Shown here: positions 47,537 through 63,236 of the stretch, piece by piece
How positions within the stretch are numbered: the stretch's first letter is position 1
Layout of the letters: every line of letters starts with the position of its first letter
Source of the DNA: Mucilaginibacter rubeus
Lineage (GTDB): Bacteria; Bacteroidota; Bacteroidia; Sphingobacteriales; Sphingobacteriaceae
Direction: 5' to 3'
Length of the DNA stretch: 64,000 nucleotides
Assembly: GCF_014643835.1 (NCBI RefSeq)
Contig: NZ_BMKD01000001.1
Coordinates: forward strand, 1,550,001-1,614,000
Made by a program: the position numbers and the translations under genes
The notes under the pieces: generated by a model
What the model was told of the DNA's origin: nothing
The model's database searches: none
What the model saw: the letters and a program-made list of their open reading frames with translations, nothing else

Positions 47537-48044
47537 ATGATTTAAAAAAAAGACCCGTAGCTATTTTAAAGCTGACGAGTATATTAGTATTATAGACTAT
47601 TTTGATTTCTGTTTTTCACAAGTTGTGATGAATGTTTTTTCAAATGTTGGTGTTTATCTGCTAACCGGGAATGACACGGATCAGGGTATTATATGACAGT
47701 ACGCACAAAACACTCAAATTCAAACGATGGATTAAGAGCCAAATTTGAAACCGGCCCGCAATTGACTTTAATAAGTGACCTCACTCCTACATACTTTAAA
47801 ACAGAAAACCGCTTTTAATATTTCCGTTTACAAAATTCTTTCACAATGATACCCTTTCCGTGTAAGTACTTTCGTCATTCCCGTGTTTTCCAGTCTGAAT
47901 ATGAAAAAAGGACCAAATGCGGCTGCGAAGACCTTCGGGAGCTCATTTTGAGCCTATCGCGCATATTAATAAATGATTAAAACTTAATAATCATATGATC
48001 TGCGTCAAAAACGATTGTTTATTAATTGTTACTTTTGTATAGTT
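47537..48044. other. Intergenic region between glgP and the efflux operon
   Basis: About 500 bp separating divergent units. It holds the candidate CRP/FNR-type promoter of the phosphorylase gene (listed) and, nearer the efflux operon, a 7-bp inverted repeat ATGATTA/TAATCAT (47973-47979, 47988-47994) and an exact TACTTTTG (48030-48037) that fits TAnnTTTG. No gene is apparent. Confidence 0.5.
47641..47684 (-). promoter_or_regulatory. Candidate CRP/FNR-type promoter of glgP-like gene
   Basis: On the minus strand CTGATCCGTGTCAT (47671-47684) has one mismatch to RTGA-N6-TCAY, followed after exactly 22 bp by AACATTTG (47641-47648), a one-mismatch -7 element. The spacing equals that of the promoters in the stress island. 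Confidence 0.5.
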
Positions 48045-48428
48045 TTGAAAAAGTTCACGGCCATATTGCTTTTAACAACCTTCCTGTTCTCAACAACTGA
48101 ACTCCACCAGTTGCTGAAATTGCCTGTGGTTTTTGAACACTTTGCCGAACACCGGAAGGAAAACAAGAGCATTTCATTCCTGCAATTTCTGGACATGCAT
48201 TACATGCATGGCAGCCCGAGGGATAAAGACTACAGCGAGGATATGAAGCTGCCCTTCAAAACAGCAGATAATTGCACAGCGACGATATCACCCGTGCTGG
48301 TTCCTCAATTATTCCAGCCACTCGTCCCTCCCCTGGTATTCTCAACGAAAACGAAGTTACATGCCTTCGATCAGTCGTTTAACCACTCAACTTATTTATC
48401 CAGCATTTGGCAGCCGCCAAAATCCTAA
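48045..48428 (+). CDS. Small exported protein of the metal-efflux operon
   Basis: 127-aa protein with a signal peptide (KKFTAILLLTTFLFSTTE) beginning at a TTG codon; the only other start is an upstream TTG at 48015, whose extension breaks the signal peptide pattern. The mature part has EHFAEHRKENKSISFLQFLDMHYMHG and a KDKDYSEDMKLPF segment that is His- and acid-rich. Such proteins precede CzcA/CusA genes in many Bacteroidota and may bind the exported metal; this is inferred from position and composition only. No catalytic motif. Confidence 0.7.
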   Translation: MKKFTAILLLTTFLFSTTELHQLLKLPVVFEHFAEHRKENKSISFLQFLDMHYMHGSPRDKDYSEDMKLPFKTADNCTATISPVLVPQLFQPLVPPLVFSTKTKLHAFDQSFNHSTYLSSIWQPPKS

Positions 48429-48521
48429 TTAGCAGTCATTTCTATGTTATTTACAGCGCTTAGCCTGGCTATTCCTGCTATGCGCTGCTTTTTGAATTGC
48501 TAATTTTCAAGATCTTATTTT

Positions 48522-51500
48522 ATGTTAAATCATATTATCGCTTTTTCCGTGCGGAATAAGCTGATCATAGGGCTTTTTATTATCGCCCTTATTGGCTATG
48601 GCAGCTATCAGTTTACCAGGCTGCCCATTGATGCCGTACCCGATATTACCAACAACCAGGTACAGGTTATTACCATCGCCCCATCATTCGGAGCTACAGA
48701 TATCGAACGTTTGGTCACCTACCCTATAGAGCAGGCGAACAGCAATATCTCGGGCTTAAAAGAGATCCGAAGTTTTTCCAGGTTTGGCCTGTCGCTGGTT
48801 ACCATTGTTTTTGACGACGCTACAGATGTTTACTGGGCGAGACAGCAGGTTGCCGAACGTTTGCAAAAAGTGCAAAGCCAGATACCCGCCGGTATCGGCA
48901 CACCCGAGTTGGGCCCGGTAAGCACCGGGCTGGGCGAAATTTACCAATACGTAGTGCGCCCCAAAAAGGGCTATGCCGGTAGGTATAACGAAACCGAGCT
49001 CCGTACGATACAGGACTGGATAGTTCGCCGCCAGTTACTCGGCGTCAAAGGTGTAGCCGAAGTGAGCAGCTTTGGCGGGAAGCTTAAACAGTATTCTATT
49101 GAAGTTGATCCTAATAAACTGCTTTCCCATAATATTACCATAACCGATGTTTTTAAGGCCCTGGAAAGTAACAACCAGAACACCGGCGGCGCTTATATTG
49201 AAAAAGGCCCGACGGTGGTATATATCCGTAGCCAGGGGCTGATCGGCAATATGGAAGATATCAATAATACGGTAATTAAAAATACTGCCGATGGCTCGCC
49301 GCTTTTTATTAAAGACGTGGCTGACGTTAAAATAGGCTATGCTACCCGTTATGGTGCGATGTGCTATAACGACGAAGGCGAAGTTGCGGGAGCGGTTGTC
49401 ATGATGCTGAAAGGTGCCAACAGCAGCGAGGTGATTAAAAACGTAAAGGAACGTATAGCACAAATCCAGAAAACTATGCCAGAAGGCGTTGAGATTGAAC
49501 CTTTCCTGGACCGTACCAAAATGGTGAACAACGCTATCGGTACTGTGGAGCGCAACCTGCTGGAGGGGGCACTCATTGTGGTATTTGTACTGGTATTATT
49601 TCTTGGCAATTTCAGGGCAGGTTTACTCGTTGCCTCTGTGATTCCGTTGTCAATGCTGTTTGCCATTATTATGATGAACCTTTTTGGCGTAAGCGGTAAC
49701 CTGATGAGCCTTGGTGCGCTTGATTTCGGTTTAATTGTAGATGGCGCCGTAATTATTGTAGAAGCCGTAATGCATACCCTTAGCCATAGCAAACATTTTA
49801 CATTAACTGACAAGATTGGGCAGAAAGAAATGGATCAGGAGGTGAACAGTTCTGCCAGCAAAATGATGAATAGCGCTGTTTTTGGCCAGATAATTATATT
49901 GGTAGTATATCTGCCGATCTTCACTTTGCAGGGAATCGAGGGTAAAATGTTTAAGCCTATGGCGCAAACCGTAGCGTTTGCGCTGTTGGGCGCTTTTATT
50001 TTATCACTCACTTACATCCCTATGATGAGCGCCGTCTTCCTGAGTAAGAAGATCAAGCACAAGCCCAATTTTTCGGATAGGTTAATGGCGAAGGTTGAAA
50101 GAATATATCAAAAAACATTAAGCGGGGTAATTGCATTTCCCAAAGCTGCATTATTAACTATTATCGGTCTGTTTATATTTTCAGCCTATATTTTAACCAC
50201 ACTGGGCGGTGAGTTTATACCTGCACTGGAAGAAGGTGATTTTGCGGTTGATACGCGGGTGCTAACCGGCAGTAGCCTGAATACTACTATTACCAATACC
50301 CAAAAGGCCGCCCACATCTTAAAAAGCCAATTCCCCGAAGTTGAAAAGGTGGTGACCAAAATAGGCAGCGGCGAAGTTCCGACCGATCCTATGCCGATGG
50401 ATGCAAGCGATATGATGGTGATCCTAAAACCCAAGAACGAGTGGACATCGGCTAAAACCTTTAATGAATTAGCTGAAAAAATGGGTAAGGCCTTACAAGC
50501 GGTTCCGGGTGTTACCGCAGGCTTTCAGTACCCGGTTCAGATGCGTTTTAACGAACTGATGACCGGCGCGCGTCAGGACGTGGTTTGTAAAATATTCGGC
50601 GAAGACCTGGATACCCTCGCTGCTTATGCGAATAAACTGGGTAAGATCATCAATACGGTTGACGGCGCTAAAAACCTCTTTGTGGAAGCAGTTGCCGGCA
50701 TGCCACAGATTATCATTAATTATAACCGCAATGCCATAGCACAATACAACCTCAATATCGCCGATATTAACAAGGTGGTTAACACAGCACTTGCCGGGCA
50801 AAGCACCGGAACCCTGTTTGAAGGTGAAAAGCGCTTTGAAGTAGTGGTCAGGATAAGCAGCGAGCAAAAAAAAGACTTGAAGGATATTCAAAACTTGCTC
50901 ATCCCGACACCGAGGGGTACACAGATCCCTTTATATCAATTGGCCGATGTACAAATAAAAGACGGCCCCAACCAGATACAGCGCGAAGATGCCAAACGCC
51001 GTATCGTGGTTGGCTTTAATGTGCGCGGCCGGGACGTACAAACAATCGTAAACGAGCTGCAGGCCAAGGTAGATAGGCAACTTAAATTCCCGGCCGGCTA
51101 TTATGTAACCTATGGTGGTGCTTTTGAAAACCTGAATGCTGCCAAACAGCGCCTGATGATAGCCGTGCCGGTTTCGTTGCTGCTTATTTTCTTACTACTC
51201 TATTTTGCTTTCAACTCCATTAAGCAGGGATTATTGATTTACTCCGCCATTCCGTTGTCAGCTATCGGGGGCATCCTGTTCCTCGCTTTGCGCGGTATGC
51301 CTTTCAGCATCAGCGCAGGTGTTGGCTTTATCGCTCTGTTTGGCGTGGCAGTGCTAAACGGCATTGTATTGATATCGGAATTTAACCAGTTAAAAAAAGA
51401 AGGTATGACCAATTTGAAACATATTGTGTTATCAGGCACCAAGGTAAGGCTAAGGCCGGTACTCATGACCGCATTTGTGGCTTCCCTGGGTTTCTTTCCG

Positions 51501-52874
51501 ATGGCTGTCAGTAACGGTGCCGGTGCCGAAGTACAAAGGCCCTTAGCTACGGTAGTAATAGGTGGCTTGCTGATCGCGACTTTCCTCACCTTGTTTGTGT
51601 TGCCCGTTTTGTATATCATGTTTGAAAAAGGCTTTAAAACAGTGTTATCGAAAAAAACGGCCACTTTGTTTTCCATTGCTTTGCTGACTGTATTAAGCCA
51701 ACCCTCGGGGGCGCAAACGCCCATCACCCTTAAAGCCGCTATAGATACTGCTTTAAAAAACAACTTACAAGTTAAACATGAACAGTTAAAGTCGAAGTAT
51801 CAGCAGGTACTGATCGGCACATCAGCCAATATTTCGCAGGCTACGCTGTTTGGGGAGGTTGGGCAAATCAACAGCAGCTACAACGATACGAAATTCGGTA
51901 TTTCCCAGTCTTTCAGCTTTCCAACTGTCTATAGCAGGCAAAAAGAACTTTTGCAAGAAGACTGGAAAAACAGCATACTGAATATCGCGGTAAATGAGGT
52001 GCTGTTAAAAAAGCAGGTTAGCCAGGTTTTTAACACCCTGGTATATTTGGAAAACAAGCGAATGTTACTACAGCATGCCGATAGCCTGTATTTGAGCTTT
52101 TATAAAAAAGCCGAGTTGCGGCTGGCCAAAGGCGAAGCCAATATCCTGGAGAAAACAAGTGCTGAAACATTATTGGGACAGGTGCAGATGCAGCTAAGCC
52201 AGTTAAAAGAAGATGTGGCCATCATACAACTGCAATTCCAGTTGTTGCTTAATTCTACAGAGCCCTTAACCCCAGACAGATCCGACTATAAATTGGCCGT
52301 TACATTGGCTTCAGATATTTTGACCTTGAAAAATCACCCGGTAATAAAACTAATAGCTCAGCAGCAGCAAATTGCAGACGCTGCTATCCGCATGGAAAAG
52401 AGCAAGCTTTTGCCTGATCTGGCCATAGGATATAACAATACCAGCATCAAGGGTATTGGTGCTGATAATAAGCTTTACAATGGCTCAAACCGGTTTAATT
52501 CAGTGCAATTGGGTATCGGCATACCTATTTTTGCCGGGGCGCAAAAGGCGCGGATCAACAGCGCGAGAGTAAACAAACAGATAGCCGAAAGTAGTTATGC
52601 TATGGAACTTCAAAGCATGACAACGGCTTATCAATCTGCCGTTTTTCAATACCACAAGTACCTGCAAACGGTTCAGTATTTTGAAAGCAAGCCGTTAAAA
52701 AATGCCGCTTTAATAACCGTTACCGCCAACCAGCAAATTGCCGCCGGAAACATCAACTACCTGGAATGGACACAACTGATTAACCAGGCCACTACAATTA
52801 AAAATGATTACCTGGATGCTGTTCGCAACCTTAACGAGGCCATCATTCAACTCAACTATTTTTCAAACAACTAA
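48522..52874 (+). CDS. CzcA/CusA-type RND efflux pump fused to a TolC-like channel
   Basis: 1450-aa fusion. Residues 1-1035 are a heavy-metal-efflux RND transporter: first membrane helix at about 13-30, charged motif DFGLIVDGAVIIVEAV in TM4 (about 402-417), two periplasmic loops and a final TM bundle ending FVLPVLYIMFEKGF. From about 1042 the chain continues with a hydrophobic signal-peptide-like segment (ATLFSIALLTVLSQPSGAQ), then a TolC/CzcC-type outer-membrane factor (about 1068-1450, ITLKAAIDTALKNN start, long coiled coils, FAGAQKARINSARV). Proton-driven export of cations such as Cu, Ag, Co, Zn or Cd is the family role. The adaptor gene follows 4 bp downstream. Confidence 0.92.
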   Translation: MLNHIIAFSVRNKLIIGLFIIALIGYGSYQFTRLPIDAVPDITNNQVQVITIAPSFGATDIERLVTYPIEQANSNISGLKEIRSFSRFGLSLVTIVFDDATDVYWARQQVAERLQKVQSQIPAGIGTPELGPVSTGLGEIYQYVVRPKKGYAGRYNETELRTIQDWIVRRQLLGVKGVAEVSSFGGKLKQYSIEVDPNKLLSHNITITDVFKALESNNQNTGGAYIEKGPTVVYIRSQGLIGNMEDINNTVIKNTADGSPLFIKDVADVKIGYATRYGAMCYNDEGEVAGAVVMMLKGANSSEVIKNVKERIAQIQKTMPEGVEIEPFLDRTKMVNNAIGTVERNLLEGALIVVFVLVLFLGNFRAGLLVASVIPLSMLFAIIMMNLFGVSGNLMSLGALDFGLIVDGAVIIVEAVMHTLSHSKHFTLTDKIGQKEMDQEVNSSASKMMNSAVFGQIIILVVYLPIFTLQGIEGKMFKPMAQTVAFALLGAFILSLTYIPMMSAVFLSKKIKHKPNFSDRLMAKVERIYQKTLSGVIAFPKAALLTIIGLFIFSAYILTTLGGEFIPALEEGDFAVDTRVLTGSSLNTTITNTQKAAHILKSQFPEVEKVVTKIGSGEVPTDPMPMDASDMMVILKPKNEWTSAKTFNELAEKMGKALQAVPGVTAGFQYPVQMRFNELMTGARQDVVCKIFGEDLDTLAAYANKLGKIINTVDGAKNLFVEAVAGMPQIIINYNRNAIAQYNLNIADINKVVNTALAGQSTGTLFEGEKRFEVVVRISSEQKKDLKDIQNLLIPTPRGTQIPLYQLADVQIKDGPNQIQREDAKRRIVVGFNVRGRDVQTIVNELQAKVDRQLKFPAGYYVTYGGAFENLNAAKQRLMIAVPVSLLLIFLLLYFAFNSIKQGLLIYSAIPLSAIGGILFLALRGMPFSISAGVGFIALFGVAVLNGIVLISEFNQLKKEGMTNLKHIVLSGTKVRLRPVLMTAFVASLGFFPMAVSNGAGAEVQRPLATVVIGGLLIATFLTLFVLPVLYIMFEKGFKTVLSKKTATLFSIALLTVLSQPSGAQTPITLKAAIDTALKNNLQVKHEQLKSKYQQVLIGTSANISQATLFGEVGQINSSYNDTKFGISQSFSFPTVYSRQKELLQEDWKNSILNIAVNEVLLKKQVSQVFNTLVYLENKRMLLQHADSLYLSFYKKAELRLAKGEANILEKTSAETLLGQVQMQLSQLKEDVAIIQLQFQLLLNSTEPLTPDRSDYKLAVTLASDILTLKNHPVIKLIAQQQQIADAAIRMEKSKLLPDLAIGYNNTSIKGIGADNKLYNGSNRFNSVQLGIGIPIFAGAQKARINSARVNKQIAESSYAMELQSMTTAYQSAVFQYHKYLQTVQYFESKPLKNAALITVTANQQIAAGNINYLEWTQLINQATTIKNDYLDAVRNLNEAIIQLNYFSNN

Positions 52875-52878
52875 AAAT

Positions 52879-54018
52879 ATGATCATGAAATCCATTATAT
52901 ATCTATCAGTCATTATTATCCTGCTATCTGCCTGCGGCGAAAAAAAACCGGCAACAGATAATACAGATAAAGCAGAGAATACTAACATCGTAACCCTGAC
53001 GGATGCGCAGCTAAAAAATGCATCGATACTTACAGGCAAGATTGAGCAAAGGGAAATATCATCTGTGTTAAAACTCAATGGAAAAATCGATGTTCCGCCG
53101 CAAAATATGGTTTCCATTAGTGTCCCCCTTGGTGGGTATTTAAAATCAACCAAGTTGTTGCCGGGCATGCATGTGAATAAGGGTGAAGCCATAGCGATGA
53201 TAGAGGACCAGCAATATATCCAGTTACAACAGGATTATCTTACAGCAAAGGCCCGGATAGGATACCTGGAAAATGAATATAACCGCCAAAAAGACCTTAA
53301 CCAAAGCAAAGCGAGCAGTGACAAGGTTTTTCAGCAAGCCGAGGCCGAATACCGCAGCCAGCAAGTTTTAATTAGTTCATTAGCTGAGAAATTACAACTC
53401 ATTGGTATCAACGTACGAACTATCAGCGCCTCAAAAATATCCAGGAGCGTCAATATATACTCTCCTATCACCGGCTTTGTATCTAAAGTAAATGTCAATA
53501 TCGGCAAATACGTATCCCCAACGGAGGTGCTCTTCGAGTTAGTAAACCCAACAGATATCCACCTGGCGCTAAAAGTATATGAGAAGGATCTGGATAAATT
53601 ATATATCGGTCAAAAACTGGTGGCCTATACCAACAACCAACCGGCAAAAAAACACGAAGCCGAGATATTACTGATTGGCCGTGATCTTTCTGCCGACAGG
53701 AACGCAGACGTGCATTGCCATTTTGAAACCTATGATAAAACACTGGTTCCGGGTACTTATATGAATGCAGAAGTACAAGTAAAAAATACTAAGGCATATG
53801 CCATAGCTAACGAAGCCATTGTTCAGTTTGAAGGTAAACAGTATATCTATAAAGTTATCGGGAACCGACAGTTTGAGATGACCGAGGTTAATATAGGCGA
53901 AAGTGAAAACGGCTTTACAGAAATACTATTGCCCACAAAGGTTATGACCGCGAACGCTGTTTTTGTAACCAAAGGTGCGTATTCATTATTAATGATGATG
54001 AAGAATAAGGCGGAATAA
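52879..54018 (+). CDS. RND efflux periplasmic adaptor (CzcB/CusB-like)
   Basis: 379-aa membrane-fusion protein and lipoprotein: lipobox ILLSAC near residues 13-18, then a biotinyl-lipoyl-like/barrel-sandwich domain (VSISVPLGGYL, INIYSPITGFVSKV-type halves), a helical hairpin (about 110-165, KARIGYLENEYNRQKDLNQSKAS) and a membrane-proximal beta domain. It links the RND pump to its outer-membrane channel. A second in-frame ATG at 52885 is equally plausible; the reading frame extends upstream into the pump gene but has no start of its own. Only 4 bp separate it from the pump. Confidence 0.92.
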   Translation: MIMKSIIYLSVIIILLSACGEKKPATDNTDKAENTNIVTLTDAQLKNASILTGKIEQREISSVLKLNGKIDVPPQNMVSISVPLGGYLKSTKLLPGMHVNKGEAIAMIEDQQYIQLQQDYLTAKARIGYLENEYNRQKDLNQSKASSDKVFQQAEAEYRSQQVLISSLAEKLQLIGINVRTISASKISRSVNIYSPITGFVSKVNVNIGKYVSPTEVLFELVNPTDIHLALKVYEKDLDKLYIGQKLVAYTNNQPAKKHEAEILLIGRDLSADRNADVHCHFETYDKTLVPGTYMNAEVQVKNTKAYAIANEAIVQFEGKQYIYKVIGNRQFEMTEVNIGESENGFTEILLPTKVMTANAVFVTKGAYSLLMMMKNKAE

Positions 54019-54052
54019 AATTAAATAGCGTTTAAACTAAGGCCTGTCAAAT

Positions 54053-54436
54053 ATGAAAACTAATATCACGATGAAATTAGTCATCTCAGTAGTCACCATC
54101 ACTATATTATCATCATGCGAAAAAGCTATTGTATATAATGGGAATGTTACTATTACGGTACAATACAACCAACAACCTGTGCCGGATATTCCTGTTTATT
54201 ACTATGTCGGGATACCTGAAAAAGACAACTCAGGCAACATTAGATATCAAGGAATGCAGCTTTCCGCTATTGATGGAAGTGCAACTTTTAGCCAATTACC
54301 CCCCGGGCAATATCACTTTACTGCATCTGGTTTTTTGAAGCCTGCCCAAAAAACGGTAGCAGCAGACACTGATGTCACAGTAAGAAAGCGTTACCGGGAC
54401 GAAAGTAATTATCAGATACTACTCCCCCTTCGTTAA
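54053..54436 (+). CDS. Small lipoprotein with a Cna-B/carboxypeptidase-regulatory-like fold
   Basis: 127-aa exported lipoprotein (lipobox LSSC near 20-23, then EKAIVYNG). The mature part shows the beta-sandwich pattern of transthyretin-like modules: VTITVQYNQQPVPDIPVYYY (about 32-51), then SATFSQLPPGQYHFTASGF (about 76-94). Function unknown; it is the last gene of the efflux operon, 34 bp after the adaptor, and might bind ligand or protein at the outer membrane. A strong terminator follows 11 bp after its stop. Confidence 0.75.
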   Translation: MKTNITMKLVISVVTITILSSCEKAIVYNGNVTITVQYNQQPVPDIPVYYYVGIPEKDNSGNIRYQGMQLSAIDGSATFSQLPPGQYHFTASGFLKPAQKTVAADTDVTVRKRYRDESNYQILLPLR

Positions 54437-54447
54437 ATTAAAGTCCG

Positions 54448-54481
54448 GAAACAGAAAATGCCTGTTGGCATTTTCTGTTTC
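54448..54481 (+). terminator. Terminator of the efflux operon
   Basis: Perfect 15-bp stem GAAACAGAAAATGCC paired with its complement (54448-54462, 54467-54481) around a 4-base TGTT loop. A/T-rich lower part; it could work on both strands and so also insulate the phosphoketolase gene that faces it. Confidence 0.85.
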
Positions 54482-54679
54482 ACCCGGCCCCGTTGTCGTA
54501 ATAGGATAAATTGCTAAGTACTGCAGGTCGGTTTTTGCAGTGTGGCTTTTGGGGTACAGGGAATTACATTATGTCCAGATCTGCATATTTATTGAATCAG
54601 GATCCGCAATAAACCCCTGGTTATCATAGTGATTAGATTAAGCATACGTGCAACTTCTGGCCTTCGAAAATTTCACCTT

Positions 54680-57067
54680 TCAAGCTTTCCACCGCCAATT
54701 TCTGATTTCGGGCATATCCTCACCATTAACATTGATGTATTGTTTGTGCTCAACCAATTTGTCCATTAGGTTTTGTTTGAGATATAAGCCTTTACTGCCC
54801 AAATGCGGCAATCGATCGATTACGTCCATTACGAGATGAAACCTATCCATTTCGTTAAGCACGGTCATGTCAAAGGATGTCGTTATTGTGCCTTCTTCTT
54901 TGTAACCTCTTACATGAATATTGTTATTATTGGTCCTATTATAAGTAAGCCTGTGAATAAGCCATGGATAGCCATGAAAAGCGAAGATCACGGGTTTATT
55001 GACAGTAAAAAGTGCATCAAAATCATGGTCGTTCAAGCCATGTGGATGGCTGGATTGCCTTTCCAGCTTTAGCAAGTCGACAACGTTTACAACCCTTATC
55101 TTTAAATCAGGAAAATGTTCACGTAATATGGATACAGCAGCCAGCGTTTCTAATGTAGGCACATCACCGCAGCAGGCCATCACAATATCTGGCTCACAGT
55201 CCTGATCATTACTTGCCCAGTCCCATACCCCAATGCCTCTTGAACAATGAACCACAGCCTCATCCATACTTAACCATTGAGGAGAAGGGTGCTTCCCTGC
55301 TACCATAACATTTACATAATGTTTGCTACCCAGGCAATGAGCCATAACCGACAAAAGGCAGTTAGAATCCGGCGGCAAATAAACCCTCACAATTTCTGAT
55401 TTCTTATTAATGACGTGATCAATGAATCCCGGATCCTGATGGGTAAAACCATTATGGTCCTGGCGCCAAACGGTTGAAGTAAGCAGAATATTCAGGGATG
55501 CTATCTTTCTCCGCCATGGTATCTCCCGCGTCATTTTCAACCATTTGGCGTGCTGGTTAAACATCGAATCGACGATATGTATAAATGCCTCATAACAATT
55601 GAATAGCCCGTGCCTGCCGGTTAGCAAATACCCTTCGAGCCAACCTTCGCACTGATGTTCGCTGAGCATCTCCATTACCCTCCCCTCTGGGGCAAGGTAT
55701 TCATCATTTACATTAATATCAGCGTTCCACTGACGGCTGGTAGTTTCAAAAATTGCCTCTAACTTATTTGAGACAGTCTCATCGGGACCAAAAACTCTGA
55801 AATTTTGAGGATTAAGAGATATTACATCCCGTAAGAAACGACCGGTGACGTGCACATCACCTTCGCCTGTGATACCCGGATGATCAACATTAACTGCATA
55901 TTTCTGAAAATCAGGAAGCACCAACTCTCTAAGCAAAAGCCCCCCATTTGTGTGCGCATTTGCTCCCATCCTTCGATTGCCTTTTGGTGCTATTTCCGCA
56001 ATTTCCTTCTTTAAGCAACCGTTAGTATCGAATAACTCTCCGGGCCGGTAACTCTTCATCCAGCTTTCGAGCATTTGCAAATGACTCTCCGGGCTTGACC
56101 CGGAAACGGTAAGCGGTATTTGATGAGAGCGAAATGTGCCCTCTATCTGCTTTCCATCAACAACCTTTGGCCCGGTCCATCCTTTTGGTGAATTTAATAT
56201 GATCATTGGCCATTTTGGTCGCTCCTGCCCTGGATGCTCTATGGCATTGTATTTTATTTGCTTTAGAAAGTGTACTGCTTGCTCTAAGGCCGCAGCCATA
56301 GCCTGGTGCATAATTGCAGGGTCCGAACCTTCGACAAATAAAGGAAAGTAGCCATAACCATGAAATAATTGTTCGAGCTCGATGTGGGGAATGCGGGCCA
56401 AAACCGTTGGATTTGAAATCTTATAGCCGTTCAAATGCAAAATTGGTAATACAGCGCCATCGGTAATCGGGTTCAGGAACTTATTAGAATGCCAGGCAGT
56501 TGCCAGCGGACCGGTTTCGGCTTCTCCATCGCCCACAACACAAGCAGCAATGAGGTCCGGATTATCCAGCACAGCGCCAAATGCATGGCTTAACGAGTAT
56601 CCAAGTTCGCCCCCTTCATGCATTGACCCCGGTGTTTGGGGCGAGGCGTGACTGGATACACCACCTGGAAATGAGAACCGTTTAAACAAATTTTTCATAC
56701 CCGCGCGGTCCTGGCTAACTTCCGGATAAACTTCGCTGTAGGTTCCTTCCAGGTATGTACCTGCTGCTACGGCAGGTCCGCCGTGCCCGGGTCCTGAAAT
56801 GTAAAGCATATTTAAATCATATCTGTTAATGATCCGGTTAAGGTGAGTATAAATAAAATTCTGCCCGGGGGTGGTACCCCAGTGGCCTAACTGCATTTTC
56901 TTGAGATGTTCTATTTTTAATGGCTCTTCCAAAAGCGGATTATCGCAAAGATAAAGCTGGCCAACAGACAAATAATTAGCTGCGCGCCAATAAGCATCTA
57001 ATTTCTCCAAACATTCACCGGTTAACGGCGCGTTATCGATTGATGTGATATCAGTTATCATTGTCAT
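54680..57067 (-). CDS. xfp: Xylulose-5-phosphate/fructose-6-phosphate phosphoketolase
   Basis: 795-aa TPP-dependent enzyme that splits xylulose-5-P or fructose-6-P with phosphate into acetyl phosphate plus an aldose phosphate. Family motifs: [19 protein letters not shown] (about 94-112), the TPP-binding [14 protein letters not shown] (about 179-192) and [11 protein letters not shown] (about 549-559). The length fits the family. Acetyl phosphate would give ATP via acetate kinase; no ackA lies in the window. It is a single gene with a CRP/FNR-type promoter element about 200 bp upstream, linking it to the stress genes beyond. Confidence 0.95.
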
Positions 57068-57231
57068 TTTAATTGCTTTAAATAATTTTAAATGCGGTTT
57101 ATTTCATTCACGATCCACACCATCATCAGTTCCTCATCAGTTGGTATTATATAGACGTTAACCCCTGAATCATTTGCAGATATATTCTTATTTTGGTCAG
57201 ATTTCATTATTCACTGATTTGACATTATCAA

Positions 57232-57275
57232 CAAATATCGAATGACTGGGATTCTCAAAACATGACCGCCATCAC
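57232..57275 (-). promoter_or_regulatory. Candidate CRP/FNR-type promoter of xfp
   Basis: Minus strand GTGATGGCGGTCAT (57262-57275), a perfect RTGA-N6-TCAY site, then a 22-bp gap and GATATTTG (57232-57239), a one-mismatch -7 element. Same geometry as at hsp20 and the usp genes. A predicted leader of about 160 nt follows. Confidence 0.6.
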
Positions 57276-57301
57276 TAATTCCGATGAGTAACAGCATTTA
57301 G

Positions 57302-57886
57302 TTAACCTTTGGATTTACCCGAAGAAAGACTGATGATATGTCTAACCTTAAAAGAAATAACCACTCTGAAAATACCTGCTCCCAAAAACGCCATTCCAGT
57401 CCATACGATCAGGTTAGCGATACCAAAAGCAGGATAAGCAAGAATGCCAACTGAAAAGAAAATGATAACCAAGCTATTAAACATGATCCAGCCCCAACTC
57501 CCGATACCGTAAGCACGCATATCAAGCGCGCTTCCTATACCCATTATGCCTCTTACAAGCAACCAAAATCCAACAATAATCGGAAGCAACATCATGGTTA
57601 TTGTTGGGTAGGTAAACAAATAACTACCTATAGCTAAATCAATCAACCCGCTTGCCAGCAGCCACCCCCAGCGCTCAATATGCCGGATACTTATCATTGC
57701 AAAAACAGTTTCAAAAAGGCCGGTCATCATCATTCCTGCGGCAAACGTAATACTAAGTGAAAGATACGACTGCAGCGGCGATAGAATCACCCAAAACCCA
57801 AGAACACAAAGCAGGATACCAGATAACAGCATCAATATCCAATATCTGGACGGGACAATTACCCTGTTATAAACTACAGCTTCCAT
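57302..57886 (-). CDS. HdeD-like DUF308 membrane protein
   Basis: 194-aa membrane protein with six hydrophobic helices, e.g. YWILMLLSGILLCVLGFWVI and LLPIIVGFWLLVRGIMGIG. DUF308 repeats are visible as pairs of helices with GxxL/VRGIxGI-type turns. HdeD proteins are linked to acid resistance in enterobacteria, but the molecular role is not established. The reading frame runs upstream to 57955; the ATG at 57886 (MEAVVYNR) gives a normal cytoplasmic N-terminus. It follows hsp20 with a 78-bp gap, so it may be cotranscribed with it. Confidence 0.85.
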   Translation of the reverse strand: MEAVVYNRVIVPSRYWILMLLSGILLCVLGFWVILSPLQSYLSLSITFAAGMMMTGLFETVFAMISIRHIERWGWLLASGLIDLAIGSYLFTYPTITMMLLPIIVGFWLLVRGIMGIGSALDMRAYGIGSWGWIMFNSLVIIFFSVGILAYPAFGIANLIVWTGMAFLGAGIFRVVISFKVRHIISLSSGKSKG

Positions 57887-57964
57887 AGTTTGATATTTTT
57901 TGCGGCGTTTGATCAAAGAAGAAGTTGCACCTGTACAATCAAAGTACAGGCGCAACGCGGTTGA

Positions 57965-58396
57965 TCAGTCAATGTTAATTTTCTTTTTCTCTGCAACAGC
58001 AGGGGTTGTTTTACGAATATCAATAGTCAGCAACCCGTTCTTGTAATTTGCTTGAATGTGGTCATTATCCACATCTCCGGGTAAGTTGAAGCTTCGGGTA
58101 AAGGAACTGCTTGAAAATTCTTTGCGGGTGTAATTCTCTTTTTCCTCATTATGTTCCTCGCTGGTTTCGGCACTGATAGTCAGCAAACCATTTTCAATAC
58201 CGATATTGAAATCATCTTTCTTGAAACCCGGGGCGGCAACTTCAAGTTCATAATTCTCTTTCTTATCACGGATGTTTACCGCCGGCAATAGCTCCCGATT
58301 GAAGAAAGGATGATTAAAGAAATTGTCGTTGTTCCAGAAATCCTCCATCATTGAACGCAATGAGGGGATGTTGTTTGATTTTACTAATGTTGACAT
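57965..58396 (-). CDS. Hsp20/alpha-crystallin small heat-shock protein
   Basis: 143-aa small heat-shock protein. The alpha-crystallin domain (about 42-130) shows ELEVAAPGFKKDDFNI, the conserved FTRSFNLPGDVDNDHIQANY and the signature KNGLLTIDI (A-x-x-x-N-G-L); the short N-terminus has the family's FFNHPFFNREL. It holds unfolding proteins as an ATP-independent oligomer. First gene of a likely pair with hdeD; a CRP/FNR-type promoter lies 63 bp upstream. Confidence 0.95.
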   Translation of the reverse strand: MSTLVKSNNIPSLRSMMEDFWNNDNFFNHPFFNRELLPAVNIRDKKENYELEVAAPGFKKDDFNIGIENGLLTISAETSEEHNEEKENYTRKEFSSSSFTRSFNLPGDVDNDHIQANYKNGLLTIDIRKTTPAVAEKKKINID

Positions 58397-58422
58397 AGCG
58401 TTGTATATTTAAGTTTATGGAT

Positions 58423-58466
58423 CAAAATTCGGAATGGATTATTCAACCGCACATGACCGTGCTCAC
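58423..58466 (-). promoter_or_regulatory. Candidate CRP/FNR-type promoter of hsp20
   Basis: Minus strand GTGAGCACGGTCAT (58453-58466), a perfect RTGA-N6-TCAY site, 22-bp gap, GAATTTTG (58423-58430), one mismatch to TAnnTTTG. Overlapping its upstream edge is an 8-bp inverted repeat GCTCACAA/TTGTGAGC (58461-58468, 58479-58486). Confidence 0.65.
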
Positions 58467-58537
58467 AAAGAGCTATGATTGTGAGCATTAAATGCAAGGC
58501 TGCGTTTAACCATTCATGTTTAAAGTCAAATTCAGTC

Positions 58538-58581
58538 ATGATCATGGTCATTTATAATGAGGACTGAGATGTGAATATTTG
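58538..58581 (+). promoter_or_regulatory. Candidate CRP/FNR-type promoter of uspA
   Basis: ATGATCATGGTCAT (58538-58551), a perfect RTGA-N6-TCAY site, 22-bp gap, AATATTTG (58574-58581), one mismatch to TAnnTTTG. The start codon lies 39 bp after the -7 element. Confidence 0.65.
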
Positions 58582-58620
58582 TGTAATCAAATCAGTTACT
58601 TAAAAATTCAATCCATTATC

Positions 58621-59481
58621 ATGAAAACTATCCTCGCACTCACCGATTTTTCCGATAATTCATCAAACGCTGCAAATTTGGCTGTACTACTGGCAGGTAA
58701 ATTGCATGCCAACGTACTTTTGTATCATAACTATGAAACCATAGCGGTAGCGTCCACTTTTTCTGGAGGTCCCTACGTAGACGAAGAGTTTTTTTTAGCC
58801 ACTGCCGAAATAAAGAAAAAACTTGATCATCAATTAAACACACTGCAATACATTGCAGATGGGATTGATAAAACCGAACGAAAGCCAACACTTAAAGGCT
58901 TAAGCGGTGACGGTAACCTGAAAGATAATCTCAAACAAATACTTGATGAAAACCAAATTGTGTTTATAACGATGGGGGCCCCATCAGGTACCTCTATCGA
59001 ACACTTGTTTTTCGGCAGCGAAACCAATAAAATAATTCAACATACACAACGCCCGGTGTTGGTTGTACCAGCCAGTACCAGTGTTACCGATATTAAAAAG
59101 GTGGTATTCGCTACTACCTTCGATGAAGCGGATATAGCGCCACTCCATTTCTTAATTGGCCTGGGAAAGATCTTTAAGTTCAGTATTGAAGTGGTACATG
59201 TAAACCAGCCAGTAAAAGATAAGAAACAGCAAATTGAAAAGGAAGGAGCTTTCCAAAAACATATTGCCAAATTCGGGTACGACGATATTTCGTTTAAGGA
59301 CCTCGGAGGCCGCGAAGTTGCGGACCGGCTACACCGTCATTGCGCTGAAGAAAAACCTGATCTCCTCGCGGTAGTTCATCACCAACATTCTTTTTTCAGG
59401 CGCTATTTTGAACATAGCACTACCAAAGAAGCTCTTAGCGACCTAAAATTGCCGCTGTTCATTTTCCCGACTATTATTTAA
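58621..59481 (+). CDS. Tandem-domain universal stress protein
   Basis: 286-aa UspA-family protein with two Usp domains (about 1-145 and 150-286). Domain 1 starts MKTILALTDFSDNSSNAA and has the nucleotide-binding loop MGAPSGTSIEHLFFGS; domain 2 is more divergent, ending in FRRYFEHSTTKEALS. Such proteins bind ATP/AMP and promote survival of starvation, redox or oxygen stress; the mechanism is poorly known. The open frame extends to 58579, but 58621 is preferred as the fold begins there. It is divergent from hsp20 and shares the CRP/FNR-type control. Confidence 0.9.
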   Translation: MKTILALTDFSDNSSNAANLAVLLAGKLHANVLLYHNYETIAVASTFSGGPYVDEEFFLATAEIKKKLDHQLNTLQYIADGIDKTERKPTLKGLSGDGNLKDNLKQILDENQIVFITMGAPSGTSIEHLFFGSETNKIIQHTQRPVLVVPASTSVTDIKKVVFATTFDEADIAPLHFLIGLGKIFKFSIEVVHVNQPVKDKKQQIEKEGAFQKHIAKFGYDDISFKDLGGREVADRLHRHCAEEKPDLLAVVHHQHSFFRRYFEHSTTKEALSDLKLPLFIFPTII

Positions 59482-59504
59482 ACCCGGTTCAATTTATTAA
59501 AAGC

Positions 59505-59546
59505 GGTCCATTCAAAAATGGGTACAATCCATACTTTGAATGGACC
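59505..59546 (+). terminator. Hairpin after uspA
   Basis: Perfect 12-bp stem GGTCCATTCAAA/TTTGAATGGACC (59505-59516, 59535-59546) with a second inner stem ATGG/CCAT in the 18-base loop. It starts 23 bp after the uspA stop; no strong T run, so efficiency is uncertain. Confidence 0.55.
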
Positions 59547-59571
59547 ATTAATATCAGTTACATGAAGCGGT

Positions 59572-59740
59572 TTATTCAACCGGAAATTTCATTTCGAAAA
59601 AGGCGCCATCTCTAAGGCTTGTATCCAAACAATTCGTCAGCAGCTGGATTGGCATAAATGATCTGTCCGGTTTTATCAATTATAATAATACCATCTATCA
59701 CATGATGTATAACAACTTTTAGGAAATTCAGATCATTCAT
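59572..59740 (-). pseudogene. Remnant of a PAS sensor kinase gene
   Basis: From 59740 the minus strand encodes a PAS-domain beginning (NDLNFLKVVIHHVIDGIIII, then DKTGQIIYANPAADELFGYKP) followed at once by a stop. In the next frame the sequence continues LRDGAFFEMKFPVE and a stop, resembling the last residues of a histidine kinase ATPase domain. So most of the gene appears to have been deleted, leaving the two ends joined with a frameshift. It lies 29 bp downstream of the LOG gene, probably an old last gene of that operon. Confidence 0.6.
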
Positions 59741-59768
59741 ATTGATAGCGATATTGATAATAAAACTA

Positions 59769-60500
59769 TTAAATGCGTTCCAAAAGCCACTTTATAGGAG
59801 TGATCGGCTTTGCGGGCTTTAGCCCAAACGTTTTGATGCACTTTTCGGAAATTAAACTAACGGCTTCTTCTATATCATCAGTTATCAAATACAACTTCAT
59901 ATCACCAGGCCCTATTGTTCCATTAGCCTTCATGAGATCGATATGTTCAACAAGTTTGCAATAGTATTCTTTACCGAAAATAACCACCGGGAAGTCTTTT
60001 ATCTTGTGTGTTTGGATCAGGGTTAGCGCTTCAAAATATTCGTCCATTGTACCGTATCCCCCAGGCATAACAACAAAGGCAAAAGAGTATTTGACCAATA
60101 ACACCTTCCTTACAAAAAAATGTTTCATGTAAACCCATTTATCGAGGTATTGGTTAGGCTTCTGCTCTACAGGAAGCTGGATATTACAGGCAACAGACCG
60201 GCCGCCAACATCCTTAGCTCCCCTATTAGCCGCTTCCATAAGTCCAGGCCCTCCCCCTGTCATAATTGTAAAACCAAGCTTCGCAAATTCGGCAGCAGCT
60301 TTCCGGGTCAGTTCATAATAAGGATGGTTTTCCTTAAATCTGGCCGAACCAAATACCGTAATGCAGGGGCCAATAAAATGTAATGCACGGAATCCTTTTA
60401 TAAATTCCCACATTGTTTCGAACGTAAAACGTAGCTCCTTAAATCGCGAATGGGGGCCCTCCAGGAATGCGATCTCAGATTTATTGCTCTCTTTAGACAT
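59769..60500 (-). CDS. LOG-family protein (cytokinin-nucleotide phosphoribohydrolase-like)
   Basis: 243-aa Rossmann-fold protein of the LOG/TIGR00730 family. The two diagnostic motifs are GGGPGLMEAANRGA (about 83-96) and PGGYGTMDEYFE (about 146-157). Members cleave nucleoside 5'-monophosphates such as cytokinin precursors into base plus ribose phosphate; the physiological substrate in free-living bacteria is unclear. A GTG three bases earlier is possible; the ATG at 60500 is preferred. It is preceded by a truncated UspA gene and followed by a kinase remnant. Confidence 0.88.
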   Translation of the reverse strand: MSKESNKSEIAFLEGPHSRFKELRFTFETMWEFIKGFRALHFIGPCITVFGSARFKENHPYYELTRKAAAEFAKLGFTIMTGGGPGLMEAANRGAKDVGGRSVACNIQLPVEQKPNQYLDKWVYMKHFFVRKVLLVKYSFAFVVMPGGYGTMDEYFEALTLIQTHKIKDFPVVIFGKEYYCKLVEHIDLMKANGTIGPGDMKLYLITDDIEEAVSLISEKCIKTFGLKPAKPITPIKWLLERI

Positions 60501-60506
60501 CACTAA

Positions 60507-60620
60507 TTATAATTGGCATAATATTACGCCTGCCCTTATATTTTGAGCAATATTTACAGCATAACTTGCCGCATTTTTTGCCTGCGCCGAAAAATCTGTT
60601 GGAACTAAAATCGTTTTCAT
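60507..60620 (-). pseudogene. Truncated UspA gene
   Basis: 37-codon frame, MKTILVPTDFSAQAKNAASY then AVNIAQNIRAGVILCQL, ending in a stop. It is an unmistakable N-terminal beta-alpha-beta segment of a UspA domain (normal length about 140 per domain). No continuation is present, since the LOG gene starts 7 bp downstream. A deletion probably removed the rest. Expression as a short peptide is possible but function is doubtful. Confidence 0.75.
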
Positions 60621-60648
60621 AATTTTTCAAAATCATAATAAAAACCGC

Positions 60649-62013
60649 TCACTTTGTTTTATTGACGGGTTTAAGGCCATAAAGCTCATTTTCGACCTTG
60701 TTGTCAAGGTTATATATGTCTTCATATTTTACAATCTGGCCATCCACAATAGCAGTAGTGATATAAGTAATCTTGATTGGGACAGGCTTTTTAAGTTGAA
60801 AAACTTTAATTTCCCGATCCATCAGGGCCCGGTGCATGGATTTTATGTCTGTTTTATTTCCGGCTGTTGCTAATAACAATTTGGCAAGTTCTTCTCCCCG
60901 CTCAATTCTTATCGCCCCGTTACTCGTCGCTCTTTTTTGCTTCCTGAATAAATTCTTATCAGATAAACCCAACAACTCTATACCTGCCTTATTGCCGGGC
61001 ATGAAATATATATAATTGCCATTTTTTTGATTGCCTGTTTTTTGTTTAGGAAACAGATTATACGGAATCATTTTGTCTCTCTGATTAGTTTTGGGATTTA
61101 CAGCGCCTGTTCCGGTAGCAAAATCTGTAAGCGTACTTACCATTAAGGGTGTTGGTGTAGCAGCAGCCCCTACCACTATTTTGAAATTAAACGTTGTATC
61201 CGGCAGGACTAATTTTAATGTATAAGTTGGAATATTAATCTGGATATAAGTACTATCGTTTATTTCGGCCCACCGTAACCGCTCCATATTCACAGCAATT
61301 TTTCTCACATCGGCTTCCGGCGTTTCATAGCAGTCTCCCTCATAAAGCCCTTTAATCAAATGTAACTGATGTTGAAATATTGCGTACTCTTTGTTTAAAG
61401 GTTGCACTTTTACTACTGCATCCATAAAAGCAGGTAATTTGAGCGCATTAGTTAATATTTCTTCGCTGTTAAAGCCGTTAATGGTTGCCCTATCAATTTT
61501 CGCAGGCGGATAATATGGGTTCAGTTTGCCGAAATGCAGGTTATTCATAAAAGCGAGCATAGCGTCGGTGAGGAATATCTCAAACCGGGCCTTTTGCTTG
61601 TTGTTTACTTTACCGGGTTGTTCGAGTATGGTGTGCAAGGTGGTATACTGCAGCTCTTTAGGATGATAATCTTCGTGCCTTAAACCAAATTGCAACACAC
61701 AATCAATCAGGAGCATGGCAGCCCATGTTTTATTTTGATCTTTTTGTTCCACTGTCCATACCGGAGCAAAAGCCCGTTTTTCGTAAAACCGCTTAGCTGA
61801 AACTGGAAAATACAAGCCATTATTCAATGCCTTATCATTTAATTGCCCGGCGATCTGTGCTGTGATCGAAGTATCAGTTGTATTGCGAATAATGTTTTTT
61901 CCTGGTGCATAGCTTTTTGACAAGGCTCCTGCCGGCATAAAAAAAATGCACAAAACAAACAGCCAAATAAGGGTTTGTTTACTGGCGGCAAAGCTTATTT
62001 CAACTATTTTCAT
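60649..62013 (-). CDS. L,D-transpeptidase-like protein with lost catalytic residues
   Basis: 454-aa exported protein of the YcbB-type L,D-transpeptidase family: N-terminal signal/anchor (about 12-30), scaffold domain (about 55-235) and a YkuD-type domain (about 245-400). The conserved scaffold segment MERLRWAEINDSTYIQINIP (243-262) fits. The catalytic motif, normally S-H-G-C-I-R, reads SNGAIRI at 364-370: His is Asn365 and the nucleophile Cys is Ala367. It is therefore unlikely to cross-link peptidoglycan and may be a binding or scaffolding relative. The gene precedes the truncated uspA and LOG genes; its promoter has the CRP/FNR-type site. Confidence 0.82.
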   Translation of the reverse strand: MKIVEISFAASKQTLIWLFVLCIFFMPAGALSKSYAPGKNIIRNTTDTSITAQIAGQLNDKALNNGLYFPVSAKRFYEKRAFAPVWTVEQKDQNKTWAAMLLIDCVLQFGLRHEDYHPKELQYTTLHTILEQPGKVNNKQKARFEIFLTDAMLAFMNNLHFGKLNPYYPPAKIDRATINGFNSEEILTNALKLPAFMDAVVKVQPLNKEYAIFQHQLHLIKGLYEGDCYETPEADVRKIAVNMERLRWAEINDSTYIQINIPTYTLKLVLPDTTFNFKIVVGAAATPTPLMVSTLTDFATGTGAVNPKTNQRDKMIPYNLFPKQKTGNQKNGNYIYFMPGNKAGIELLGLSDKNLFRKQKRATSNGAIRIERGEELAKLLLATAGNKTDIKSMHRALMDREIKVFQLKKPVPIKITYITTAIVDGQIVKYEDIYNLDNKVENELYGLKPVNKTK

Positions 62014-62031
62014 AATTTCTTTTTTATGACG

Positions 62032-62075
62032 TAAAAATGCAATGCCTGGTAGGTTAAATTAGTGACGACGGTCAT
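62032..62075 (-). promoter_or_regulatory. Candidate CRP/FNR-type promoter of the transpeptidase-like gene
   Basis: Minus strand ATGACCGTCGTCAC (62062-62075), a perfect RTGA-N6-TCAY site, 22-bp gap, CATTTTTA (62032-62039), two mismatches to TAnnTTTG. The weakest -7 element of the set, but in the same register. Confidence 0.5.
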
Positions 62076-62122
62076 TTATCCAACTGATCCTGAACACTCA
62101 AAACAGTTTCAACTTTGTAAAC

Positions 62123-62941
62123 TCAATATGGAAAGACAAGCACCGGGATGCCTACTTGCACAGGAACGGAAATATCGCTCCCCTCGGTTCTCAACTGCTC
62201 ACAATGAAATCGGTGATGTACAACCGCCAGCAGATCGGCATGCATATTATGTATCATAACATCAACAGCCCGTGACATATCACGTTCTTTTGTATTACTA
62301 AAAAACAGCCTCTCATAGCCGATTTTTTTACTTATCTCGTCGCTAAAGAGTGTTAGCGCGTAATTTTGTTCCAAATGGGGCAAACCCTTTGCCGAAATAT
62401 GAGCGAGTAACAGATCTGCCTGAAAGGCCTGGGCCAAAGAAGCAAGATGTTTCAAAACATTTAACCGGCAATATCGTAAATCAGCTGTGTAAACCAAGCG
62501 CTCAAAACCACCATCAAATTTCACAGGAACAAGCATCACCGGGCAAGATATCCGGTTTAAAACCGCCTGCACCTTAACGTCCCGATTAAATGGTGCCGAT
62601 TCCGGCAACCCTTTTATAACCATCCAAACGCAATTTTTATTGATGTAAGCAATCAATTGCGCTTCCGTATCACTTGACACTTCAAGTTCTTCAATTAGCG
62701 GCATATGTTCACCTTCTTTTAAGGACAAATTGGCCGGTTGGCCCCGTAACGGACCGGGTATGTAACCATCAGCGGCAACGTACCCCGCCAATTGCAATGC
62801 TTTAGAAAACGATGGTTGTTTTACCGCATATATCCGGGCCAAAACTAAATTAGCTCCAATGCGCTTTGCTATGTTGAAGGCAAGATGCGTGGCATTTGTA
62901 GCAGACGCAGAACCATCGTCAATTACCAGGATCGTTTTCAT
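62123..62941 (-). CDS. Tandem universal stress protein
   Basis: 272-aa UspA-type protein with two domains (about 1-135 and 140-272). The first begins MKTILVIDDGSASATNATHL; the second contains ERLVYTADLRYCRLN and a C-terminal HNMHADLLAVVHHRFH, both typical strands/helices of the fold. Nucleotide-binding glycines are less clear than in the neighbouring uspA, so ligand binding is uncertain. It is a single gene with a divergent 3'-side neighbour and the strongest FNR-type site of the window upstream. Confidence 0.88.
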   Translation of the reverse strand: MKTILVIDDGSASATNATHLAFNIAKRIGANLVLARIYAVKQPSFSKALQLAGYVAADGYIPGPLRGQPANLSLKEGEHMPLIEELEVSSDTEAQLIAYINKNCVWMVIKGLPESAPFNRDVKVQAVLNRISCPVMLVPVKFDGGFERLVYTADLRYCRLNVLKHLASLAQAFQADLLLAHISAKGLPHLEQNYALTLFSDEISKKIGYERLFFSNTKERDMSRAVDVMIHNMHADLLAVVHHRFHCEQLRTEGSDISVPVQVGIPVLVFPY

Positions 62942-62978
62942 AGGCTGTGTTTTCAGGTTAATAATTGAAGTACGATAG

Positions 62979-63022
62979 CAAAATTAGGCATAGGCTCATT
63001 TTATCCACTTGATGTAAATCAA
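62979..63022 (-). promoter_or_regulatory. FNR-type promoter of the usp gene at 62123-62941
   Basis: TTGATGTAAATCAA (63009-63022) is a perfect FNR consensus (TTGAT-N4-ATCAA), followed on the minus strand after 22 bp by TAATTTTG (62979-62986), an exact TAnnTTTG. A second site, GTGATTTTCCTCAT (63031-63044), lies with its centre 22 bp further upstream, two helical turns away. Confidence 0.7.
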
Positions 63023-63236
63023 CGATTTACGTGATTTTCCTCATACATTTTGCAGGCCTTATAAAACGACTTTTTCATGGTAGCCCTTGAAATGGCTAAA
63101 AACATTAATATTCCGTTGCTGATATTAAATGCGAAATAGAATTTAACATGCACATAACTGTATATGGGTATAATATCATCTTAAGCTACGATAGCGATTT
63201 GCAGACAGCTATTACTATGTACGTCGGACAAAGAGG

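Follow-up and report, generated by a model that had tools for sequence, protein, structure and literature searches.

A 64,000-nt stretch of Mucilaginibacter rubeus DNA (NZ_BMKD01000001.1, positions 1,550,001 to 1,614,000), which we refer to as the window, holds a stress island in which six promoters share one operator, consisting of two Crp/Fnr-type dyads exactly 22 bp apart and followed after a further 22 bp by a -7 box. The genes behind these promoters encode a glycogen-phosphorylase-like protein, the phosphoketolase Xfp, Hsp20, an L,D-transpeptidase-like protein and two universal stress proteins (Usp). The six promoters probably make up a single regulon, which a Crp/Fnr activator would switch on from the tandem dyads under low oxygen, the most likely activator being REC-Crp, a response regulator with a receiver and a Crp/Fnr-type output.

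Geometry of the tandem operator

An earlier, sequence-only reading of this DNA had listed six 14-bp dyads, each followed by a -7 element, and all of them were recovered letter for letter, with every pair spaced 22 bp. For the sixth, in front of usp, the listed letters exist on the + strand, and the reading that faces usp is the - strand TTGATTTACATCAA, with TAATTTTG 22 bp on. Five exact RTGA-N6-TCAY sites had been claimed; only four of the six are exact (xfp, hsp20, uspA and transpeptidase-like), and all six match the core TGA-N6-TCA. The non-chance excess that had been proposed is borne out, with RTGA-N6-TCAY occurring nine times in the window versus 3.1 in shuffles, none of 100 of which reached nine.

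The dyad itself is of the Crp/Fnr type that had been claimed, but the single dyad taken as the regulatory unit had to be replaced by a tandem. A second dyad with at least five of the six core letters lies exactly 22 bp upstream of each proximal dyad in all six promoters (five distal dyads match five core letters and one matches all six), and no such dyad was found at any other offset in a scan from 14 to 60 bp in all six window promoters. The unit is therefore a 36-bp tandem, then 22 bp, then the -7 box. This composite occurs six times in the window, always intergenic and exactly at the six promoters, and 20 first-order Markov sequences gave a mean of 0.15 and a largest count of 2.

In class II promoters the Crp/Fnr site is centred at -41.5. 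The centre of the proximal dyad lies 29.5 bp from the -7 box in the window, which is consistent with that position at the predicted starts. In a transcription-start map of Flavobacterium psychrophilum, a TAnnTTTG box is located at -12 to -5 (PMC9723704), and when the -7 boxes of the window are placed on the scale given there, the dyad centres fall at -41.5 and -63.5.

The nearest genome, G001, aligns with 40-64 kb of the window in blocks of 92-98% identity and holds a similar island on contig C27, at roughly 368-453 kb (85 kb). Its genes include many for Usp, Hsp20 and BON proteins, acetate kinase with phosphoketolase, and phosphorylase (names assigned by eye from translations), together with a phosphoenolpyruvate-utilising dikinase-type protein, alcohol dehydrogenase and cation ATPases (a single representative of each was checked). 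In this island the 22-bp spacing from dyad to -7 box was counted 15 times, compared with an average of 1.4 for a spacing, and the 10 dyads found at 44 bp are distal ones. The composite occurs 24 times in the 200 kb examined, with 24 of 24 both intergenic and inside the island, compared with 0.8 in six Markov sequences. Over the whole G001 genome the compound pattern of dyad, 22 bp and -7 box was found 13 times versus 2 for the reversed control; when the spacing from RTGA-N6-TCAY to the -7 box was varied from 15 to 45 bp, counts peaked at 22 (13) and 44 (12), with a mean of 2.1 elsewhere.

The same spacing recurs in named genomes, where we took the best 80 loci of at least 573 relatives (at least 588 stretches). 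All but two of these carry Bacteroidota names, the exceptions being a record labelled Alphaproteobacteria and an uncultured bacterium, and the genera include Mucilaginibacter, Pedobacter, Dyadobacter, Flavobacterium, Emticicia and Pontibacter. Of the intergenic dyad pairs within 80 bp of each other, 70 of 118 are spaced 22 bp, compared with 2 of 11 in coding DNA. The distance from dyad to -7 box is 22 bp in 119 cases and 44 bp in 121, against a mean of 10, and shifted tandem offsets leave only 0-8 of 82 promoters, shifted -7 spacings 5-21. At the expected location of the -33 box TTG is rare in these 82 tandem promoters, which fits an activator-dependent promoter, with the caveat that the conserved dyad also restricts the letters at this place. 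In all, 125 tandem promoters are spread over 61 of the 80 loci; their targets are the adjacent kinase (23, of 74 kinase genes), REC-Crp itself (2), D-lactate dehydrogenase (23), a Usp cluster (13), and then Hsp20, BON and others (by eye). Counts in relatives thus strongly support the Crp/Fnr-type regulon with class II geometry that had been proposed from the window.

The putative regulator REC-Crp and its probable kinase partner

REC-Crp, about 350 aa long, is a response regulator in which a receiver is combined with a cNMP-like domain and a Crp/Fnr helix-turn-helix; the Pfam matches over cut-off are PF00072 (receiver), PF00027 (cNMP-binding-like) and PF13545 (HTH_Crp). G001 encodes four proteins of this length that align end to end, two in the island (C27:373468 and 443219) and two directly after a PAS histidine kinase (C21 and C28), and the C21 copy has all three domains. 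All 80 REC-Crp proteins from the named loci retain Asp53 (the predicted phospho-acceptor), Thr83 and Lys105 in the receiver and Glu315 and Arg319 in the recognition helix. In the Crp/Fnr superfamily, Glu and Arg of this helix read TGA half-sites. We rejected this helix as a unique fingerprint of REC-Crp, as Glu and Arg also occur in other G001 Crp/Fnr proteins and residue 318 is Ser in 40 of 80 and Ile in 40 of 80.

The best solved match of the Crp half is FNR, in which four cysteines hold a [4Fe-4S] cluster; none of the 80 REC-Crp proteins has more than three cysteines after residue 120, and 63 have none or one. In cAMP-CRP an Arg of the phosphate-binding cassette binds the cAMP phosphate; on a tentative mapping to CRP, the apparent counterpart of this Arg is an acidic residue (Glu or Asp) in 74 of the 80 proteins. 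REC-Crp also falls outside the definition of FixJ (a receiver with a LuxR-type helix-turn-helix), as its output is cNMP plus HTH_Crp.

A histidine kinase gene lies within 250 bp upstream of REC-Crp in 74 of the 80 loci. The PAS domain of the C21 kinase in G001 has FixL as its best solved match (E 9e-33), and the alignment pairs its own His and Arg with the two conserved haem-pocket residues of FixL. By residue alignment 52 of the 74 adjacent kinases keep both. An initial motif search for haem PAS domains passed 34 of the 74 and was discarded as too strict. The C21 kinase gene is itself preceded by tandem dyads, and near this operon lie a fused cbb3 subunit gene (COX1 + FixO), FixG, a D-2-hydroxyacid dehydrogenase, a metal ATPase, a Usp gene and a radical-SAM protein that is hemN-like by eye. 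Taken together, the likely regulator is REC-Crp paired with a FixL-like kinase, and not an ordinary Crp or Fnr, and gene content favours the low-oxygen role suggested earlier for the regulon.

Two side observations concern these loci. Near the cbb3 genes, C21:164849-166624 encodes a protein of about 590 aa that is conserved and matches nothing in Pfam at 1e-8; its relatives have tandem-dyad promoters in 6 named loci (by eye). Locus L107 is a 3-kb contig with an Alphaproteobacteria label, possibly a misbinned piece of Bacteroidota DNA, and it encodes a kinase together with a REC-Crp that shares 49% identity with the query.

It is conceivable, though on balance doubtful, that the sites are real and that non-haem PAS kinases relay a signal of energy shortage, starvation or redox stress to them, with oxygen as only one input in some lineages. 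The FixL His/Arg pair is missing in 22 of the 74 adjacent kinases, so oxygen is not necessarily the signal in every case, and the window targets (Usp, Hsp20, phosphoketolase and phosphorylase) are general stress and energy genes. Oxygen is favoured over such signals by the G001 operon described above, which is near cbb3-oxidase genes and whose PAS domain is closest to FixL, and by the induction of cbb3 oxidase under oxygen limitation in F. psychrophilum (PMC9723704). Five kinase operons stand behind tandem dyads, of which L083 and L098 keep the haem residues and L086, L090 and L092 do not, and this contrast suggests that different signals may feed the same operator.

Distribution of REC-Crp and the window island

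We counted 93 exact tandems followed by TTTG, spread over 32 of 296 Bacteroidota genomes, and no match to the reversed control. REC-Crp was counted in 43 of these genomes after three receiver-only matches (G142, G349 and G353) had been dropped from 46. The exact tandem is present in 27 of the 43 genomes with REC-Crp versus 5 of the 253 without (Fisher P 3e-22), and within the class in 27 of 43 versus 3 of 30 (P 7e-6), P values that make the association look stronger than it is because species are not independent.

The same regulon and tandem might also be run by a plain Crp/Fnr protein that lacks a receiver and responds to oxygen, redox or a nucleotide, REC-Crp being one of several users; we consider this unlikely. 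G001 does have several plain Crp/Fnr proteins, one of them (C27:355421) about 13 kb off the island, and four of the five genomes with the tandem only, three of them in the class, carry close plain cousins of the Crp half (E about 1e-40 to 1e-46), the fifth having a weaker one (E 3e-29). However, 29 of the 30 class-mates without REC-Crp still have a Crp/Fnr-like match to the Crp half (one partial) and the tandem is present in only three, and 23 of the 74 adjacent kinase genes have tandem sites in front.

Several observations weigh against the reading of a REC-Crp regulon, the close plain cousins just named among them. No tandem promoter lies within the flanks examined at 19 of the 80 loci, the exact tandem is missing from 16 of the 43 REC-Crp genomes, and it occurs without REC-Crp in three class-mates and two more distant genomes. 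Three other G001 Crp/Fnr proteins carry the recognition-helix Glu and Arg (by eye). In a family survey the single-dyad pattern was only modestly denser with REC-Crp (0.79 per Mb) than without (0.56); since both values exceed their controls (0.14 and 0.13 per Mb, respectively), single sites of this kind probably also serve other members of the Crp/Fnr family. Furthermore, the tandem precedes only 7 of 30 xfp homologues (30 of 34 matches) and 2 of 30 phosphorylase homologues (30 of 42) in flanks of 1.5 kb, beyond which the operon promoter often lies, and site conservation before distant homologues was set aside as weak. Because four of the five tandem-only genomes have plain cousins, tandem use does not depend on the receiver, and we dropped it as a requirement. 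The three class-mates with the tandem and without REC-Crp have the best-scoring Crp-half matches of the 30, which indicates that membership of the DNA-binding clade counts for more than possession of a receiver.

That the six sites are unrelated products of chance or promoter composition is scarcely credible, for although TGA-N6-TCA is a short motif and the -7 box CATTTTTA is weak, the shuffles, the Markov sequences, the shifted-spacing counts and the 296-genome control (0 matches) refute it, as do distal dyads that stand at one offset in six of six promoters and at no others.

REC-Crp, rather than a plain Crp/Fnr protein, would be the preferred activator in M. rubeus. The sequence-only reading had placed the regulator gene outside the window, which is consistent with the content of 40-64 kb, the annotated part. 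A 14-kb G001 stretch with the REC-Crp copy at 443219-444265 is missing from the window, the corresponding point being 54657-54674, so the regulator of the window organism is expected elsewhere in its genome. Compared with G001, the window has no intact copy of acetate kinase, of two Usp genes or of a PAS kinase, each of which is either disrupted or missing. The six window promoters and their genes are listed below.

Table. Operator elements and downstream genes of the six window promoters (positions within the window).
Feature	Sequence	Positions	Strand	Remarks
Phosphorylase promoter, proximal dyad	CTGATCCGTGTCAT	47671..47684	-	core TGA-N6-TCA; one mismatch to RTGA-N6-TCAY
Phosphorylase promoter, distal dyad	GTGCGTACTGTCAT	47693..47706	-	5/6 core letters; 22 bp upstream of proximal
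Phosphorylase promoter, -7 box	AACATTTG	47641..47648	-	
Glycogen-phosphorylase-like gene, 555 aa		45869..47536	-	PF00343
xfp promoter, proximal dyad	GTGATGGCGGTCAT	57262..57275	-	exact RTGA-N6-TCAY
xfp promoter, distal dyad	ATGCTGTTACTCAT	57284..57297	-	5/6 core letters
xfp promoter, -7 box	GATATTTG	57232..57239	-	
Phosphoketolase xfp, 795 aa		54680..57067	-	PF09364, PF03894, PF09363
hsp20 promoter, proximal dyad	GTGAGCACGGTCAT	58453..58466	-	exact RTGA-N6-TCAY
hsp20 promoter, distal dyad	ATGCTCACAATCAT	58475..58488	-	5/6 core letters
hsp20 promoter, -7 box	GAATTTTG	58423..58430	-	
hsp20, 143 aa		57965..58396	-	PF00011
uspA promoter, proximal dyad	ATGATCATGGTCAT	58538..58551	+	exact RTGA-N6-TCAY
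uspA promoter, distal dyad	ATGTTTAAAGTCAA	58516..58529	+	5/6 core letters
uspA promoter, -7 box	AATATTTG	58574..58581	+	
Universal stress protein gene (uspA), 286 aa		58621..59481	+	PF00582
Transpeptidase-like promoter, proximal dyad	ATGACCGTCGTCAC	62062..62075	-	exact RTGA-N6-TCAY
Transpeptidase-like promoter, distal dyad	GTGTTCAGGATCAG	62084..62097	-	5/6 core letters
Transpeptidase-like promoter, -7 box	CATTTTTA	62032..62039	-	weak, 4/6
L,D-transpeptidase-like gene, 454 aa		60649..62013	-	scaffold domain PF20142 the only Pfam match
usp promoter, proximal dyad	TTGATTTACATCAA	63009..63022	-	core match; T/A flanks, not exact RTGA-N6-TCAY
usp promoter, distal dyad	ATGAGGAAAATCAC	63031..63044	-	6/6 core letters; exact RTGA-N6-TCAY
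usp promoter, -7 box	TAATTTTG	62979..62986	-	6/6
Universal stress protein gene (usp), 272 aa		62123..62941	-	PF00582

At six places in the window (47894, 54657-54674, 57198, 59623, 60514 and 63060) G001 has extra sequence, in stretches of about 0.8-1.1 kb each and once of 14 kb, mostly made up of stress-regulon genes, and the island copy in the window appears eroded. A 39-codon frame at 57088-57207 (-), lying between xfp and its promoter, resembles an acetate kinase remnant (by eye), where the G001 counterpart is a whole acetate kinase gene; the window phosphoketolase therefore retains its promoter and has lost its partner gene. Active L,D-transpeptidases carry the motif SHGC-R, and since the transpeptidase-like protein has SNGAIR at this position, it may be catalytically dead.

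Proposed mechanism and known systems

In the mechanism we propose, a fall in oxygen would lead the FixL-like PAS kinase to phosphorylate the receiver of REC-Crp, and the phosphorylated protein would load cooperatively on the tandem dyads, one dimer next to the other, with the dyad centres at about -41.5 and -63.5. The promoters themselves carry TAnnTTTG as their -7 box and show no recognisable -33 element, and the proximal dimer would touch RNA polymerase in class II fashion. Switched on in this way would be the kinase/REC-Crp operon itself, D-lactate dehydrogenase, cbb3-linked genes and the stress island of the window. Whether this extends to many Bacteroidota, as a low-oxygen and energy-stress regulon operated by a single FixJ-like and FixK-like protein through phosphorylation-controlled, side-by-side loading at 22 bp, with the window island as one output, we judge to be an evenly balanced question.

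This mechanism follows the logic of the FixL-FixJ-FixK cascade, with the FixJ and FixK steps combined in a single protein. That cascade consists of a haem-PAS kinase, a receiver protein and a Crp/Fnr activator without an iron-sulfur cluster, and its targets include cco oxidase and haem genes (PMC4999443). The system predicted here from sequence resembles its counterpart in Rhizobiales and Caulobacterales in having a haem-PAS-type kinase, a receiver, a Crp/Fnr activator without an iron-sulfur cluster and, among its proposed targets, cco oxidase and haem genes, but differs in that receiver and Crp/Fnr parts are joined (REC-cNMP-HTH_Crp), with no separate FixJ at the loci, and in its tandem operators 22 bp apart, its different -7 box and its stress-island targets.

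Class II promoters of FNR and ANR share the TGA-N6-TCA dyad at -41.5 and the recognition-helix Glu and Arg, and FNR is the closest solved relative, whereas the second dyad at -63.5, the N-terminal receiver and the lack of an FNR-like cysteine set distinguish the present case. Class III promoters of Escherichia coli CRP carry two Crp-family dimers on one promoter, as is predicted here, but the 22-bp offset is fixed here and the regulator is probably not cAMP-dependent. Regulators of the Bacteroides MalR type likewise belong to the Bacteroidota Crp/Fnr family; the MalR paper (PMC8510549) loosely assigns homologues from Flavobacteriales, Saprospiraceae and Ignavibacteria bins to MalR, gives it a role in carbon source use, and in the passages considered describes no receiver or kinase partner.

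Oxygen control in aerobic Bacteroidota appears to be little worked out: among the open-access journal papers listed by our full-text searches, none dealt with a FixL-like kinase paired with a Crp/Fnr response regulator in Bacteroidota. Because the same switch surrounds a probable oxygen-sensing gene pair in many Bacteroidota, it probably represents a little-studied low-oxygen response. If this is true, the 36-bp operator and the two-gene operon would predict the low-oxygen regulon from sequence in many genera, and REC-Crp would be a natural case in which the FixJ and FixK steps have been compressed into one protein.

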